Assembly: GCF_020514115.1 (NCBI RefSeq)
Contig: NZ_VTKZ01000006.1
Location: forward strand, 62,001 to 126,000
Reading direction: 5' to 3'
DNA: 64,000 bases
From: Synechococcus sp. MU1642
GTDB lineage: Bacteria > Cyanobacteriota > Cyanobacteriia > PCC-6307 > Cyanobiaceae
Each line of letters begins with the position of its first letter. Positions within the stretch are counted from its first letter, which is position 1. Positions 7,919 to 60,158 of this stretch are shown here, one piece after another. A program made the translations under genes and the position numbers. Under the pieces are notes generated by a model. That model ran no database searches and was not told the origin of the DNA. It saw nothing but the letters and a program-made list of their open reading frames with translations.

Positions 7919-8058
7919 TATAGATGAGTTGATACAGAGCGGATAGCTTTTGTAGCTACGACCACTTTTTTCCAGAGCCTTGGACCACGACCAGTGGGCC
8001 GAGGTTTGGGTGGTCGCATATGGCGGCGTTTCCGTTTCAGTTGAAACAGTTCTTTTTT
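7919..8058 (+). ncRNA. Candidate small RNA in the gap between the DUF1830 gene and the 62-residue protein gene
   Basis: The 257-base gap 7839-8095 contains, in order on the plus strand, a TATAGAT box at 7919-7925 and three hairpins. The first is TAGCT/AGCTA at 7944-7948/7954-7958. The second is GACCAC/GTGGTC at 7983-7988/8010-8015. The third is GTTTCA/TGAAAC at 8034-8039/8042-8047, followed by AGTTC and six T residues. This order of promoter-like box, stems, and hairpin plus T-run is what a roughly 120-base sRNA would show. No clear -35 box is present and there is no known-family match, so this is a prediction only. Confidence 0.35.
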
Positions 8059-24528: not shown

Positions 24529-26263
<1,735 letters not shown>

Positions 26264-26940: not shown

Positions 26941-26953
26941 TGACGTAAGACGA

Positions 26954-27769
26954 TCAGGATTGTTCCGCCCGGATCGCCGCCTTGGCCTGCTTCCAGAGGG
27001 TTTCCAATTCGTCGATGCTGTGGCCCTGCAGATCTCCACCCAGGGCGGCTTCAACGCGAGAGAAACGGTCGAGGAAGCGCTGATTCGTGCCGGCGAGGCC
27101 TTCTTCGGGCTCGATTTGGCACCAACGGGCCACGTTCACCAAGGTGAACAGCAGATCGCCCAGTTCCTCCTGGGCATGGCCTTGGTTGCCGCTGGCCACC
27201 GCCTCCATGAGTTCGTCCAGCTCCTCATGGACTTTCTCCCAGACGCCGGCCATGTCATCCCACTCGAAGCCGGCCTTGGCTGCTTTCTTTGAGATGGTCA
27301 TCGCTCCAGCCAGCGCCGGTAGGCAGCGCACCTTGGTGCTGAGCTGGTCGCTGAGGGGACTGGTGGAGCAAGCCAGTGCCTCTGCCTGCTCCTTCAGCTT
27401 GATGGCCTCCCAGCTGCGTCGCACCTCGTCACTGGTGCTGGTGTGGGCATCGCCGAACACATGCGGGTGACGCCGGATCAGCTTTTCGCTGATGCCATCG
27501 GCAATCGCATTGAGATCGAAGCGTTGCTCTTCTCCAGCGATCTGTGCATGAAGCACTACCTGGAGGAGAAGGTCGCCGAGTTCCTCCTTGAGGTGGTGGT
27601 CATCGCCATGACGGATCGCATCAGCCACCTCGTGGGCCTCTTCCAGCACGTAGGGCACCAGGGATGCATGGGTTTGTTCCAGATCCCATGGGCAACCCGT
27701 TGTTGGATCCCTGAGTTGTGCCACAACATCGACCAAACGTTCTATGGCATCAGACGGAGCGTTGGCCAT
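26954..27769 (-). CDS. mazG: MazG nucleoside triphosphate pyrophosphohydrolase
   Basis: MazG hydrolyses NTPs or dNTPs to monophosphates and pyrophosphate. The 271-residue protein has two MazG repeats. The first has LEEAHEVADAI with EELGDLLLQVVLHAQ. The second has VHEELDELMEAV with EELGDLLFTLVNVARW. The GCPWD motif sits at the N-terminus. Two-domain length is normal for bacterial MazG. Confidence 0.94.
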   Translation of the reverse strand: MANAPSDAIERLVDVVAQLRDPTTGCPWDLEQTHASLVPYVLEEAHEVADAIRHGDDHHLKEELGDLLLQVVLHAQIAGEEQRFDLNAIADGISEKLIRRHPHVFGDAHTSTSDEVRRSWEAIKLKEQAEALACSTSPLSDQLSTKVRCLPALAGAMTISKKAAKAGFEWDDMAGVWEKVHEELDELMEAVASGNQGHAQEELGDLLFTLVNVARWCQIEPEEGLAGTNQRFLDRFSRVEAALGGDLQGHSIDELETLWKQAKAAIRAEQS

Positions 27770-27802
27770 GCAGGGTCAACAACTGGGGCAAGGTCCACCT
27801 TC

Positions 27803-30070: not shown

Positions 30071-30127
30071 TCGATTCGAACGTGAATCGCCCCATTCTCG
30101 TCATCGGGGGGTGATCCCCCTCAAAAA

Positions 30128-30364
30128 TCAGAAGCAGAAGGGCAGGAATTGGGTGCGGCAGGCGGCATAGCCATCCACCAGGGGGCCCAGCCCGATCTGG
30201 TGAACGATGCCTGCACCGGTAAGCCCTTCGGTGATGATTCCGATCACGATGCCGAGCATGGCGGCACGGCCGTTGAAGCGTTCTGCCTTTTTGAGCTGCT
30301 CCATGTGGATGTCGCGGGCGGCGACGCCCTGGAACCAAGAATCGTTGGCTTGCGGAGATTTCAT
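30128..30364 (-). CDS. High-light-inducible protein (HLIP, CAB/ELIP family)
   Basis: HLIPs are single-helix chlorophyll-binding-type thylakoid proteins that protect photosystems under high light. The 78-residue product has the hallmark EQLKKAERFNGRAAMLGIVI, in which E-x-x-N-G-R-x-A-M is the chlorophyll-binding signature. The remainder of the helix (IGIITEGLTGAG) and a hydrophobic tail follow. Expression is probably light- or stress-induced by family analogy. Confidence 0.9.
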   Translation of the reverse strand: MKSPQANDSWFQGVAARDIHMEQLKKAERFNGRAAMLGIVIGIITEGLTGAGIVHQIGLGPLVDGYAACRTQFLPFCF

Positions 30365-30401
30365 CGAACTGAATCTGCTGTTACAAAGCTTAATCCGAAA
30401 A

Positions 30402-31139
30402 TCAGTTTTTCAGCAGCAGACGCTCCCCCGGTGTTGGATCGGTCCAGCTGCAGCTGGCCGGCAGCTGGGCTCCAGTGCTGGCAACAGATCCTTTCATTTG
30501 CAGGGCCCGACTCAGGACGCCGCCAAAGTGCACATCGCCGCCGGAGGTGCTGGCGAGGACCGTGGTGGGTTGGAAGCGTTCCACCAGTTGCGGCACCACC
30601 GAACAGCCTTTGACAAACGCCCCAAGCGCGGGCAACCCCAGATCCACCATCGGCGTGATCACGGCATCCAGCGGTTGCGGCTCCAGGGCTGGATCGAGAA
30701 AACCGTGGGGTTCCAGATAGAGCGATCCGGCCGGATGCTCAAGCAGATAGCCGTTTTCCACAGTCGGCACTGGTGCACCGGTGCTGGCTCGCACCTGTAG
30801 GCCCTGGCGGGTGGTGCTCTCTCCAGGGGAGAGAGCTTGCACGCTGGTGAAGCCCAAGCGTTCCACCACCGTTGCTGCGGCCACCGATCCAATGACGGGC
30901 AGATCCTTGGGCAGCAACGCCAAGGTCTCCGGATGGGCGTGGTCTGCGAGCCCCTGGGTGAGCAACAGCAGGTTTAGCTTCTCGGGCACGTTGCGCTCGC
31001 AGGGAAGCTCCCCCTTCAGCAGCCATTCTCCCGGGGGGAAACTCAGGCTGCCGCGCAGCCAGGGATCCACCAGAACGCAGAGATCATCGAATTCGAGCAA
31101 CCAGCCATTGGCTCCGTAGTAAGTGGCGGCCAGGGTCAT
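30402..31139 (-). CDS. MBL-fold metallo-hydrolase-like protein with altered metal motif
   Basis: The 245-residue protein has the metallo-beta-lactamase fold start (ATYYGANGWLLEFDDLCVLVDPWL). Where H-x-H-x-D-H is expected it has LLLTQGLADHAHPETLALLP, so the first two His are Gln and Leu while Asp-His remain. I recall the same SQGL-x-DH-H form in plant and cyanobacterial relatives, so it may be a family trait. The activity is unknown. It overlaps the Fur-family gene by 4 bases. Confidence 0.75.
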   Translation of the reverse strand: MTLAATYYGANGWLLEFDDLCVLVDPWLRGSLSFPPGEWLLKGELPCERNVPEKLNLLLLTQGLADHAHPETLALLPKDLPVIGSVAAATVVERLGFTSVQALSPGESTTRQGLQVRASTGAPVPTVENGYLLEHPAGSLYLEPHGFLDPALEPQPLDAVITPMVDLGLPALGAFVKGCSVVPQLVERFQPTTVLASTSGGDVHFGGVLSRALQMKGSVASTGAQLPASCSWTDPTPGERLLLKN

Positions 31140-53414: not shown

Positions 53415-56285
53415 TTGATTTCTCCTTTTTCGCAGCGGCACATCGGCCCGAGCGAGGCTGAACAATTCCGCATGCTGAATGCCCTCGGCTACAGCGATCT
53501 AAAGGAGTTCGTCGCTGATGTCGTGCCCGCCGAAATCCTCGACCCAGCACCGCCGGTCGAGGCGTTGCCGGGGGGCTGTGGGGAGGCGGAGGCCCTGCAG
53601 CAGCTCAAGCAGCTGAGCGAGACCAACACGCTGCGCCGCTCTTTGATCGGGCTGGGTTACTACGGCACGGCAACCCCCGCCCTGATCCAGCGCCACGTTT
53701 TTGAAAATCCGGCCTGGTATACCGCCTACACCCCGTACCAGGCGGAAATCGCCCAGGGGCGTCTGGAGGCCCTGCTCAATTTTCAAACCTTGATCAGTGA
53801 GCTCACGGGCTTGCCGATCGCAAACGCGTCGCTGCTGGATGAAGCCACCGCAGCTGCGGAGGCTATGAGCCTCAGCTTCGGGGTGTGTAGTCGCCCTGAG
53901 GCGACCCGGTTTTTGGTGGATGCCAACGTGCTGCCGCAAACCTGGGCAGTGCTGCAGACCCGCGCCGAACCCCTTGGCATCAGCCTTGAGCGGATCGACC
54001 CGGCTACGGCCCCGATTGATGCGTCCGTGTTCGGAGTGCTGTTGCAGTTGCCCGGAGCCGATGGACGCCTCTGGGATCCATCCGCCGTGATCGACGCGGC
54101 CCATGCCGCCGGTGCCTTGGCCACCGTGGCCATCGATCCCTTGGCGCAGACCCTGATGGCGCCCGTGGGATCCCTGGGGGCTGACATTGCCGTGGGCAGC
54201 GCCCAACGCCTTGGGGTGCCGATGGGTTTCGGTGGCCCCCATGCCGCCTTCTTCGCCACTGTTGAGGCCTACAAGCGCCAGATTCCCGGCCGTTTGGTGG
54301 GGCAATCCAAGGATGCAGAAGGCTGCTCGGCCTTGCGTTTGGCGCTGCAAACCCGCGAACAGCACATCCGCCGCGACAAGGCCACCAGCAACATCTGCAC
54401 GGCCCAGGTGCTGCTCGCCGTGATGGCCTCGTTTTATGCCGTGCATCACGGGCCCGACGGTTTGCAGGCCATAGCCCAGCGCATTGTTGGTCTGCGCTGC
54501 CAGTTGGAGCAGGGCCTGCGAGTCCTTGGCTATCCGCTGGAGGTCGCCGATCGCTTCGATACCATCACCGTGCACTGTGCGTCTGCACCGGCTGTGCACC
54601 GCGCTGCAGCAGCGGCAGGTTTCAATCTGCGGGTTCTGCCCGATGGCGCAGCGCCGGCGGATGCCACCGGATTCGGCATCAGCCTGGATGAGCTCTCGGA
54701 TCAACGGGAGCTGCAAGCCCTCCTCGCACTGCTGGCTGAGGCCTGCGGCCAGGCGTTGCCGGAGCTTGTGGCTGAACAGCCCCCGGCCCTCTCCCTGCCG
54801 TCACGCAGCCAACCCTGGCTGAGTCAGCCGGTCTTTCACCAGTACCGCAGCGAATCAGAGCTGATGCGCTATATCCAGCGGTTGGTGAGCCGTGATCTGT
54901 CGTTGGTGCACGGGATGATCCCGTTGGGCAGCTGCACCATGAAGCTCAATGCCGCCGCTGAGCTGCAGCCTGTGAGCTGGCCTGCGTTTGCGGCGTTGCA
55001 TCCCTTTGCTCCAGTCGATCAGGCCCACGGCTATCGCCGTCTGGCTGATGATCTGGAGCAATGGCTGGCTGCCCTGACGGGCTTTGCTGCCGTGTCGTTG
55101 CAGCCCAATGCCGGTTCCCAGGGGGAATATGCGGGGCTGCTGGTGATTCGCGCCTGGCATCGCTCTCGCGGTGAGGCCCATCGCGACATCTGTCTGATCC
55201 CCACCAGCGCCCATGGCACCAACCCTGCCAGTGCCGTGATGGCCGGCCTCAAGGTGGTGGCCGTGGCCTGCGATGGCGAGGGCAACATCGATCAACAGGA
55301 TCTGGCGGTCAAGGCTGCCCAGCATGCCGATCGGCTGGCGGCGCTCATGGTCACCTACCCCTCCACCCACGGCGTGTTCGAGACCGGCATCCGTGAGATC
55401 TGCTCGGTGGTGCATCAGCACGGCGGCCAGGTGTACCTCGATGGGGCCAACCTCAATGCCCAGGTGGGGCTGTGCCGTCCCGGTGCTTTCGGTGCCGATG
55501 TCTGCCACCTCAACCTGCACAAGACCTTCTGTATTCCCCATGGGGGTGGTGGTCCTGGAGTGGGGCCGATTGGTGTGGCGGCGCATCTGGCGCCCTTTCG
55601 GCCGGGGCATCCCTTGCAGGCTGGCGCCTCATCGGCCATCGGTCCTGTGTCCGCAGCAGCGCTCGGCAGCGCCAGCATCCTGCCGATCAGCTGGATGTAC
55701 CTCCGGATGATGGGGGCGGAGGCCCTGCGGCAGGCCAGTGCCGTGGCGCTGTTGTCGGCCAACTACCTCGCCCATCGGCTCGACGCTTCGTACCCCGTGC
55801 TGTTTCGAGGCAGCACGGGGCGGGTGGCCCATGAATGCATCCTTGACTTGCGCCCGCTCAAACGCGATGCGGGGATCGATGTGGATGACATCGCCAAGCG
55901 TTTGATGGACTACGGCTTCCATGCGCCCACCGTCAGCTGGCCGGTGGCAGGGACGGTGATGGTGGAGCCCACCGAAAGCGAAAGCCTGGCAGAGCTGGAT
56001 CGTTTTGCCGATGCCCTGGTGGCGATCCGCGAGGAGATTCGCGCCATTGAAACCGGCTCCAGCGATCCTGCGAACAACCCGCTCAAGCGTGCTCCGCACA
56101 CCCTGGCTGCCGTCACAGCGGATAACTGGGACCGTCCCTATAGCCGTCAGCAGGCTGCTTTCCCGATGGAGGGGCAGCAGGAGAGCAAGGTCTGGCCGGC
56201 CGTGGCTCGGATTGACAACGCCTTTGGTGATCGCAACCTGGTATGCACCTGTCCTTCGGTAGAAGCGGTGGCTGTGACGGCCTGA
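53415..56285 (+). CDS. gcvP: Glycine dehydrogenase (decarboxylating) GcvP
   Basis: GcvP decarboxylates glycine and passes the aminomethyl group to GcvH, central to photorespiration. The 956-residue protein is the fused dimeric form (GcvPA plus GcvPB) with [20 protein letters not shown] at the start and the PLP Lys in [20 protein letters not shown]. The start is a TTG (53415), which is the only candidate near the conserved N-terminus. Confidence 0.96.
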
Positions 56286-56978: not shown

Positions 56979-57494
56979 TCAGAGCTCGAGCAGTGACATC
57001 TGCAGCAGCCGCTGCACCAGGTCGTTGATGCTGTCGTCCTGCGCTGGTTTGGCGTGGTTGCTCAGCAGCTGACGCCCCACCACCTGAGCCCCGAGGTGGC
57101 TGAGCTGGATTCGGAGCGATACCAGCAGTTCCATGCCGCCACCGCCGGAGAAGGTGGCCATGGCAATTGCCCGCCCATTGAACAAGGATCGGAAGTCGTC
57201 GTCCGTCACCGAGAGCCATGCAATGGCATTGGTGAGCGACGGTGGAATCGAGCCGTTGTACTCCGGCGCGCAGATCACCCAGCGTGGTGTTTGGTGCAGC
57301 TGGTCGTGCAGGGTCGCCAGGTCAGGACCTGGGCCTGCTGCCTTCACGCGCGGCGTGAACAAAGGCAGGTTGAGCTCTGTGAGGTCGATCAGTTCGGCGC
57401 TGGCGTTCTGGGCCGCTGCGGCCTGCACGAAGCGTTCCGCCAGCTTGAGGTTCTCGCCATTGCTCGCTGTCAGAACGATGAGATCAGAGGGCAT
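56979..57494 (-). CDS. NAD(P)H-dependent FMN reductase family protein
   Basis: The 171-residue flavodoxin-fold protein (IVLTASNGENLKLAERF at the phosphate-binding loop, CAPEYNGSIPPSLTNAIAWL) matches NADPH-dependent FMN reductase/quinone reductase proteins. It could supply electrons to the neighbouring flavodiiron or rubrerythrin proteins (inference). It is encoded on the same strand as rubrerythrin, 75 bases away. Confidence 0.85.
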   Translation of the reverse strand: MPSDLIVLTASNGENLKLAERFVQAAAAQNASAELIDLTELNLPLFTPRVKAAGPGPDLATLHDQLHQTPRWVICAPEYNGSIPPSLTNAIAWLSVTDDDFRSLFNGRAIAMATFSGGGGMELLVSLRIQLSHLGAQVVGRQLLSNHAKPAQDDSINDLVQRLLQMSLLEL

Positions 57495-57569
57495 GGAGAA
57501 GAAGGCTCTTGATGGAATCGTGCAAGGCCTCGTCTGTTTTCACAACGAGACCTGCCAGCTGCCAGGGCG

Positions 57570-58283
57570 TCAGGCCGCTTTTAACTCGGCTTTGAGGTCA
57601 CCGCAGATCGGGCACTGCCAATCGTCGGGAATGGCCTTGAAGGGGGTGCCCGCGGCGATGGTGGAATCCTGATCCCCCTCGGTGGGTTCGTAAATCATCG
57701 AGCACACCTTGCAGATCCACTTGCCCGGGATTGGTTGGTCGGCCTGGCCTGCGGTGTCCTTGCCTTGCAGGGCCTTAAGGGCAACGCAATAGGTTTCGGC
57801 GTGATGCTGCTCGATTGGGGTCAGCCGGCCGAAGTTCTTGGCGGCGGTGCGGAATTGGCCGGCATGCTCTTTGGACTCGCTGCTTTGCTCGGCGAATTCC
57901 GCTTCGGCTCCGCTGTCCCGGTCTTGCCGGGCCTGGGCGGCGAACTCCGGATACATCGTTGTGTACTCATAGGTTGCGCCCTCAATGGCGAGTTTCAGGC
58001 AGCGGATCAGGATGGACTGCTTCTCCTCGTCGCTGAGCTGCTCGGGATGGCTCACCACCAACTCAGGGTGCAGCAGACGGAAGTGGGCAAAGGCGTGTTC
58101 CGTTTCCTGCGCTGCGGTGTCACGAAATCACTTGGCCAGGTCTTTATGGCCGAGTTGTTTGGCCACCTCTGAAAAGAACAGGTATTTGCGGTTGGCCATG
58201 CTCTCGCCACCGAAAGCAGCCTCGAGGTTGGCGTGGATGGAAGGCTTGGAAATGTCCATCGACGGCACTAGGGATCGTTCCAT
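57570..58283 (-). pseudogene. Rubrerythrin, interrupted by an in-frame TGA
   Basis: Rubrerythrin is a diiron peroxidase with a rubredoxin domain. The frame from the ATG at 58283 reads MERSLVPSMDISKPSIHANL and on to VAKQLGHKDLAK, then a TGA at 58128-58130. It continues in the same frame with FRDTAAQETEHAFAHFRLLH to a rubredoxin domain (CKVCSMIYEP and CPICGD). Relatives have Leu-like residues at this position in LAK-x-FRDTA. The downstream part from about 58061 could still be made on its own start (163 residues), lacking the first helix. Confidence 0.85.
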
Positions 58284-58355
58284 CAGCCTGGCCCTAACTA
58301 AATAGTGGGCATGAGTTAGTCGAGGGGTTTGGGTTGCCAGCTCCAGGGTGCTAGC

Positions 58356-60158
58356 TCAGTAGTTGGCGCCGCTGCGGCGTTGGTGCACTGCGGTGCTGCC
58401 CTCTGCATCCAGCACGCCGCCGTGATCCACTTCGGCGTAGATCAGCCAGTGGTCGCCGCATTCCATCCGCTGGCTCACCTTCCCGTCCAGCCAGGCCAGG
58501 GCACCCGGCAGCAATGGCTGTTCGGAAGGGCTGCTCTCCAGCTCAAGGCCTTCAAAGCGATCGGCACCGGGTTCGAACGGTTGCAGGAACTGCTTCATCA
58601 GGGCGGTTTCGCGCCCTTCGGCCAGCACGTTCAAGGCGAAGCGATCGCCCTTGTGCAGCAGTGCTTCCACGGCACGGTCCTTGGCGACGGCCACGGTGAT
58701 GCCGGGGGGATTGAAGCTGGCTTGGCTCACCCAGCTGGCCACCATGGCCCCGCTCAGATCGGCTTTGCGTGTGGTGAGCACGCAGAGGGAGCCGATCACG
58801 CGGCCCAGCGCTAGCACCGCTGGATCGCTGCGGCTTTCGCTCAAGCCCCCCGCACTGCGCCGTTGCGCCCGTCTCTGGCTTTGCAGCAGCTGGCGGGCGA
58901 AACGGGTACCGGTTTCCTCCAGCTCCTTCACCCGGGCAACATCCGGACTGAACTTCACCCGGATCGGCTTGAAGCCAAAGCTGAAGCCGCCATCCCGCAG
59001 CTTCGTTTCCAGCAGATCCACCGCCTCGCCGCTCCAGCCGAAGCTGCCGAAAACCCCCACGGGCTTGCTGCGATCTCCTTCCGCCAATAGCGTGCCCAGG
59101 GCCGAGACGATCGGTGTGGGGGCATGGCCCCCCAGGGTTGGTGAGCCGATCAAGAAGGCGTCGGCCTGTTGGATCGTGCTCACCAGTTCATCGGCGGGCG
59201 TGAATTCGCAGTTCAAGCTGCTCACCCGGATGCCGGTTCGGCTGACCCCGCGGGCCAGGGCATCGGCAATGGCTGCGGTGTTGCCGTAGGCGCTGGCGAA
59301 CAGCAGGGCCACCGTCAGGCTGGCGTTCTGCTGGCCTTCGCCCCAGCGGCGGTAGTCATTCAGCAGGCTGCGCCAACTGGCTTCGATCGCCGGCCCATGG
59401 CCCGGTGCGATGGTACGAATGTCGAGCTCTTCGAGCCGTTCCACCAGGGCATCTACCTGACGGGCCATGGGGGCCATCAGACAGTCATAGAAGTGACGGC
59501 GCTCTTCTTCGGTGCTGCTGCGGTTGCTTTCGGCCCAGCTGTCCGTGCAGAGGTGAGCACTGAAGAACTTGTCGCTTATCAGCAGGCCCAGGCTTTCCTC
59601 GAAGGCCAGCAATCCGCCTGGCCAGCGAGGAGTTGGGGCCGGCAGCAGTATCAAACTGTGCTGATGGCTGAGGGGAAGTGTTTGCTCCTGGCGGATGACC
59701 CTAAGGGGTGGCAGATCTGGTAGCGGTGATTGTTCGCTCGTTTCGCCGGGAGGGGCGGGCTTGCGTTGGCTCCACAGCTCCTCGATCAACTTGGCGCCGG
59801 GGTTGGAGACGATCAGTTCCAGGCCGGCATAGGCCTTCGCTAGATCCCGCAGCAGGGCAACGCGGTTGGGGTTGACATGGCCCACCACCACCAGCAGCGG
59901 TGCGTCGCTGCTGGGCAGGGCTTCGGCAAGCACCGGCAGAAAGGCTGCGCTGTAGGCCACCCCCGGGGGGTGGACCAGCACAGCAGGGGCGCCATCTCCG
60001 GCCTCGAACAACACACTGTTGGCGGTGCTGCCCCTCTCCAGGGCGTACTCCAGTTCGAAGCGGTGCCTTTGAGGGCTCAGACCCCGCAGACCAACGACCC
60101 CATCGTCGATCGGCAGCTGGATCGTGCGACGCGTGGTTGCGGTGCTGGTCACGCTCAT
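58356..60158 (-). CDS. flv1: Flavodiiron protein, Flv1-type
   Basis: Flv1 with Flv3 forms a heterodimer that reduces O2 to water at photosystem I. The 600-residue protein has a lactamase-like domain, a flavodoxin domain (LLFASAYGNTAAIADALARG) and a C-terminal flavin-reductase domain (AMVASWVSQASFNPPGITVA). Where Flv3 has HTEPDHS, this protein has VVGHVNPNRVALL, so the diiron ligands are not canonical, as known for Flv1/Flv2-class proteins. It lies downstream of flv3, with a decayed gene between. Confidence 0.9.
   Translation of the reverse strand: MSVTSTATTRRTIQLPIDDGVVGLRGLSPQRHRFELEYALERGSTANSVLFEAGDGAPAVLVHPPGVAYSAAFLPVLAEALPSSDAPLLVVVGHVNPNRVALLRDLAKAYAGLELIVSNPGAKLIEELWSQRKPAPPGETSEQSPLPDLPPLRVIRQEQTLPLSHQHSLILLPAPTPRWPGGLLAFEESLGLLISDKFFSAHLCTDSWAESNRSSTEEERRHFYDCLMAPMARQVDALVERLEELDIRTIAPGHGPAIEASWRSLLNDYRRWGEGQQNASLTVALLFASAYGNTAAIADALARGVSRTGIRVSSLNCEFTPADELVSTIQQADAFLIGSPTLGGHAPTPIVSALGTLLAEGDRSKPVGVFGSFGWSGEAVDLLETKLRDGGFSFGFKPIRVKFSPDVARVKELEETGTRFARQLLQSQRRAQRRSAGGLSESRSDPAVLALGRVIGSLCVLTTRKADLSGAMVASWVSQASFNPPGITVAVAKDRAVEALLHKGDRFALNVLAEGRETALMKQFLQPFEPGADRFEGLELESSPSEQPLLPGALAWLDGKVSQRMECGDHWLIYAEVDHGGVLDAEGSTAVHQRRSGANY

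Follow-up and report, generated by a model that had tools for sequence, protein, structure and literature searches.

A probable young pseudogene of cyanobacterial-type rubrerythrin in Synechococcus sp. MU1642

An interrupted rubrerythrin frame and its surroundings

The minus strand of a 64,000-nucleotide stretch of DNA from Synechococcus sp. MU1642 (contig NZ_VTKZ01000006.1; the whole stretch is referred to as the window) carries a frame of 229 codons, which runs from an ATG at 58259 to a TGA at 57570–57572 and contains one internal stop. The genome from which the window is taken, labelled G000, comprises 2,116,729 bases in 22 contigs and is 99.98% complete. The frame matches the Pfam families Rubrerythrin (residues 11–138, 60.7 bits against a cut-off of 22.8) and Rubredoxin (residues 180–223, 66.7 bits against a cut-off of 23), and full-length unbroken orthologues elsewhere in the genus show 73–90% identity. 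A spacing of 27–32 residues between the two CxxC motifs defines the “cyanobacterial” rubrerythrins, or group 5, in PMC5114695; the frame contains both domains and has a spacing of 29 residues, which places it in this type as a gene lineage. An intact relative (L004, from genome G022) scored 81.2 bits against the NCBIfam equivalog model for classical rubrerythrin (NF045767), below the cut-off of 200, in agreement with the cyanobacterial rather than the classical type. The arrangement is that of cyanobacterial-type rubrerythrins such as Anabaena RbrA, in which a di-iron ferritin-like domain is followed by a rubredoxin domain with this CxxC spacing, but the window copy differs from them in having a stop at codon 44, an alanine in place of the glutamate at codon 95 (E95A) and a 24-bp deletion, and would not be a working member of the type. 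Two intact neighbours, a flavodiiron-type protein gene presumed to be flv and a glycine dehydrogenase gene taken from its sequence to be gcvP, served as controls (Table 1). A scan of 57500–58400 for promoters and terminators returned none of either kind and was uninformative.

Table 1. Positions of the rubrerythrin frame, its lesions and the control genes in the window
Feature	Position	Strand	Basis
Probable pseudogene of a cyanobacterial-type rubrerythrin (di-iron ferritin-like domain, then long-spaced rubredoxin domain)	57570..58259	-	Frame, Pfam, CxxC spacing
In-frame TGA, codon 44 (Leu in relatives)	58128..58130	-	Frame and alignment with relatives
Codon 95 GCA (Ala), within the di-iron E-x-x-E motif; all 91 distinct intact relatives have Glu	57975..57977	-	Alignment, including sulerythrin
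Codon 200 Thr, Gly in 91 of 91 relatives (rubredoxin domain)	57660..57662	-	Alignment
Junction of an in-frame deletion of 24 bp that removes 8 codons from the rubredoxin C-terminus	57588..57594	-	Alignment with relatives
Open frame of 163 aa remaining after the stop, with a TTG start and without E19, E52 and H55	57570..58061	-	ORF and alignment
Intact neighbour, 600-aa flavodiiron-type protein (presumably flv), control	58356..60158	-	ORF; matches below NCBIfam cut-offs
Intact neighbour, 956-aa glycine dehydrogenase (presumably gcvP), control	53415..56285	+	ORF

The plus-strand TCA at the interruption reads as TGA on the minus strand. An earlier note, made from the letters of the window, had described the reading frame as intact on both sides of this codon, and this was borne out, since both flanks are homologous to rubrerythrin by Pfam. 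Of the 91 distinct intact relatives, 90 have Leu at codon 44. Among the best 80 of 311 loci in the genome collection, 78 showed an unbroken match, with Leu at this position in 77 and Val in one; the other two loci were a broken copy described below (G015) and a match ended by the end of a contig. Comparison with sister strains, which the note had proposed as a means of finding the ancestral codon, showed that all 12 other genomes of the 13-genome clade to which the window belongs encode Leu here, by TTG or CTG. The codon is TTG in G028 and CTG in G022. G028 is placed as the sister of the window genome, with an SH-aLRT value of 87 in the flv tree and a bootstrap value of 100 for the split in the tree of flv and gcvP combined; raw gcvP distances place G022 just as close as G028 (dS 0.177 vs 0.181). 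Since G028 has TTG, two adjacent bases differ at the TGA of the window. The description of the lesion as a substitution-type change therefore stands in that no base has been gained or lost at the site in net terms, and needs amendment in that two neighbouring bases differ from the TTG of G028. The TGA could have arisen by two substitutions via TTA (Leu), by one double-base mutation or by a compensated deletion and insertion. The double-base mutation and the single-base path through TTA are equally possible; TTA is present at codon 44 in two of the 78 copies read from the best 80 of 311 loci, and such an intermediate keeps Leu before the stop arises.

Compared with its intact orthologues, the window copy bears disabling mutations in addition to the stop (Table 1). 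Residues E19, E52, H55, E98, E128 and H132 and both CxxC motifs are kept, and position 131 is variable among the relatives (Glu in 51 of 91). The glutamate replaced at codon 95 presumably occupies a di-iron ligand position; which of E19, E52, H55, E95, E98, E128 and H132 are ligands is assumed here from Desulfovibrio rubrerythrin. In sulerythrin, E53 and E126 are named in a PDB title, and E53 aligns with E52 of the window frame. With Ala at codon 95, the window copy does not retain every one of the conserved carboxylates and histidines of the di-iron site that a working enzyme has, and with the TGA at codon 44 it does not have the uninterrupted reading frame either. Conservation reaches 95% or more in 121 columns, and the window copy deviates at eight of these, the stop being one of them. 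A leave-one-out control on the 91 intact proteins gave a median deviation of one, with at least four deviations in three proteins (4, 4 and 8); the intact-looking relative L111 deviates at eight conserved columns, as many as the window copy. In G022, the stretch corresponding to the 24-bp deletion is bordered by short AAGCC repeats, as expected of replication slippage.

The remainder of the window was screened with coding-like ORFs defined on 100 kb of G022, 75 in number with a minimum length of 100 aa, of which 44 reached 200 aa; the screen covered genes with a good G022 counterpart, and a stop was disregarded if it fell within the initial tenth plus ten residues. Three of the 44 longer ORFs were flagged, and a stop well inside the frame was found only in rubrerythrin; in the flagged ORF at 26948–27802, the stop lies at position 283 of 288. 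Five shorter ORFs were also flagged, of which those at 24883, 44692 and 49793 overlap longer ORFs on the opposite strand, and those at 8054 and 33378 have the stop upstream of a conserved Met, so that they may start there and be intact. The third flagged ORF of the longer set, at 30086–30717, is a 211-aa ORF of G022 that is split across frames in the window; about half of it overlaps an opposite-strand ORF, and it may not be a gene.

The window genome yielded no second rubrerythrin; its sole other match to the Rubrerythrin domain is the Mg-protoporphyrin cyclase AcsF. The second protein match, considered as a rescue copy, was rejected, as it was only rubredoxin-like, with 33% identity over 55 residues.

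Lesions and substitution rates in related genomes

Rubrerythrin is present in 21 of the 34 genomes of the genus and is broken in four of these. In addition to the TGA of the window, a 1-bp insertion leading to a TAG was identified in G028 (L023), a 1-bp deletion in G004 (L022), which is a single-contig genome, and a 7-bp tandem duplication in G015 (L021). The four broken copies have no lesion in common, and G028, G004 and G015 all belong to the 13-genome clade of the window. G015 is presumably a single-cell genome, and its duplication may be an artefact. In these three relatives, flv and gcvP are uninterrupted, and the best match was uninterrupted in 30 of 30 genomes with a near-full-length one for flv and in 30 of 30 genomes for gcvP. 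The excess of lesions per kilobase in rubrerythrin is significant (p ~8e-5), with p of 8e-4 when G015 is left out and 4e-4 when a split flv copy in G012 is counted; by copies alone, the difference between 4 of 21 broken rubrerythrin copies and 1 of 31 flv copies is not significant (p 0.14).

The split copy of flv lies at G012:C63:5404-7648, where a second flv is divided between frames, with a partial match to rubrerythrin after it (residues 1–122, 80% identity). G012 is a draft genome, 75% complete, which also contains full copies of both flv and rubrerythrin, and is perhaps a mixed bin.

The rates of substitution were compared between rubrerythrin and its neighbours and between broken and intact copies. 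The window copy and that of G028, both broken, differ by 29 nonsynonymous and 20 synonymous changes (dN/dS 0.41), whereas flv and gcvP compared between the same genomes give dN/dS values of 0.079 and 0.100, respectively. Three chosen pairs of intact rubrerythrins gave 0.069, 0.083 and 0.123, and the difference between the window–G028 pair and these three pairs pooled is significant (Fisher p ~5e-5); the mixed pair of G004 and G013 gave 0.176. When dN/dS was assigned to individual tips by a three-point method, the window copy (0.281) and G028 (0.285) lay above the range of nine intact tips (0.050–0.225), the upper end of which is the intact and likewise raised G013 (0.225). The broken tips of G004 (0.151) and G015 (0.140) lie within the intact range, so that the rate signal comes from the window genome and G028; relaxed constraint relative to functional orthologues and to the neighbouring genes is thus seen in two genomes. 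Because the tip value of the window copy is well below 1, most of its divergence arose under constraint, and either the decay is recent or the constraint is not wholly gone.

In nine of 30 flv loci, rubrerythrin is absent from the 1.5 kb downstream of flv, G011 being left unjudged because its contig ends there. A search of the wider family, for which 90% completeness was required, returned a rubrerythrin match at E 1e-15 in 108 of 271 genomes. Among the 92 matched genomes outside the genus, none yielded a match that was split or interrupted by a stop at this threshold, which weaker relics would escape; the match in one of them, G223, is ended by the end of the contig. One genome from a different genus of the family, the single-contig G262, retains just 44 residues of rubrerythrin (192–235 of the query) at G262:C1:2418331-2418462, a relic that perhaps reflects an older loss.

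Gene decay and its alternatives

Taken on its sequence, the gene is very probably a recently inactivated rubrerythrin, in a Synechococcus lineage in which the peroxidase became dispensable. This reading is based on the internal TGA, E95A, the 24-bp deletion, the raised dN/dS, the lack of a second copy and the unshared lesions in three relatives. Translation would stop after 43 residues, ahead of most of the di-iron ligands, and would yield no enzyme. Selection on the gene would have been relaxed before or around the time at which the stop arose, because other defences against H2O2 would suffice, with thiol peroxidases or other systems as putative substitutes for rubrerythrin. Most probably this is a young pseudogene, and the absence of its product is predicted. 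The two adjacent base changes from TTG to TGA are less simple than a single change and count against a pseudogene. The earlier note had offered three readings, a dead gene, one that is read through and one from which a shorter C-terminal protein is translated; the first is favoured here and the other two are disfavoured. E95A, the 24-bp deletion and the lesions that arose independently in sister genomes were absent from that note, and all support a dead gene. The differing lesions in sister genomes and the clean loss elsewhere resemble ordinary bacterial pseudogene formation and the repeated gene loss of picocyanobacteria, from which nothing distinguishing was found; the window case is possibly at an early stage of such a loss.

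An error of sequencing or assembly at 58128–58130, with the gene intact in the living cell, would account for a two-base difference that is unusual for one mutation, and the assembly is a draft in 22 contigs. However, E95A, the 24-bp deletion and the raised dN/dS in the same gene would stay unexplained, three relatives carry other lesions in rubrerythrin while the best matches of flv and gcvP are clean throughout, and the screen of the window found a stop well inside none of the other coding-like ORFs that reach 200 aa, so that an error is very unlikely. It is also highly improbable that a functional shorter C-terminal protein, for example a rubredoxin donor, is produced from the TTG at 58061 or from another start. 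An open frame does remain downstream of the stop, and both CxxC motifs survive in it, but its rubredoxin end lacks eight codons and an invariant Gly, and without E19, E52 and H55 the product should not form a di-iron site. Furthermore, the breaks in the relatives lie elsewhere in the gene, and thus no such fragment is common to them.

Readthrough or recoding of the TGA, by a suppressor tRNA or as selenocysteine, would restore a full-length protein, and this is compatible with both the open frame that flanks the TGA and the tip dN/dS below 1. The gene resembles those of selenoproteins and other TGA-readthrough genes in having an in-frame TGA flanked by homologous sequence, but differs from them in the lack of a Sec tRNA above the cut-off, in the residue replaced and in its other defects. 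No tRNA-Sec exceeded the family cut-off in the window genome among the 150 of 411 first-look candidates scored; of 11 matches below the threshold, eight were examined and proved to be ordinary Ser, Leu, Gly and Tyr tRNAs. No Rfam match was obtained across 57400–58500. The residue replaced is Leu rather than Cys or Trp, and the product would still lack E95 and the eight C-terminal codons. In addition, the sister lesions are frameshifts at other places, which indicates that no recoding site is held in common. A protein made across the TGA is accordingly extremely improbable, and the different breaks in close relatives point to ordinary gene decay rather than to an unusual reading of the genetic code, views on which need no change.

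Peroxide defence and genome size

Rubrerythrins reduce H2O2, and Anabaena RbrA is an NADPH-dependent peroxidase working with FNR (PMC6616624); in marine Synechococcus WH8102, a rubrerythrin-like protein makes up 2.9% of the exoproteome (PMC4949707). Since no other copy was found, an annotation of “rubrerythrin present” is wrong for the window genome if the gene is a pseudogene as proposed. No published report joining Synechococcus, rubrerythrin and pseudogene was found in the searches made, a search combining rubrerythrin, Synechococcus and gene loss returned nothing on such a loss among the matches listed, and a term search of the main text of PMC7522525 gave no mention of rubrerythrin or of “pseudogen”. 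The loss of rubrerythrin looks recurrent and ordinary in kind, and its youth and repetition make it mildly useful: the clade contains intact and broken versions of the gene in close genomes, in which the worth of the enzyme to a phototroph in oxic water can be asked.

Eleven genomes of the clade are at least 98% complete. Rubrerythrin is broken in three of the four of about 2.1 Mb (G000, G004, G013 and G028) and in none of the seven larger ones (G002, G008, G022, G023, G024, G030 and G033), a difference with a Fisher p of 0.024 in a post hoc test on related genomes that are not independent. Against a link with size, G015, which is 87% complete and lies outside the eleven, is broken yet already amounts to 2.3 Mb. 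The proposal that rubrerythrin is now being lost in parallel within one Synechococcus clade, along with genome shrinkage, is thus tentative and somewhat doubtful. A known trait of streamlined picocyanobacteria is that they have lost defences against peroxide; if the link with genome size holds, this clade would be a late and ongoing case of such a loss.
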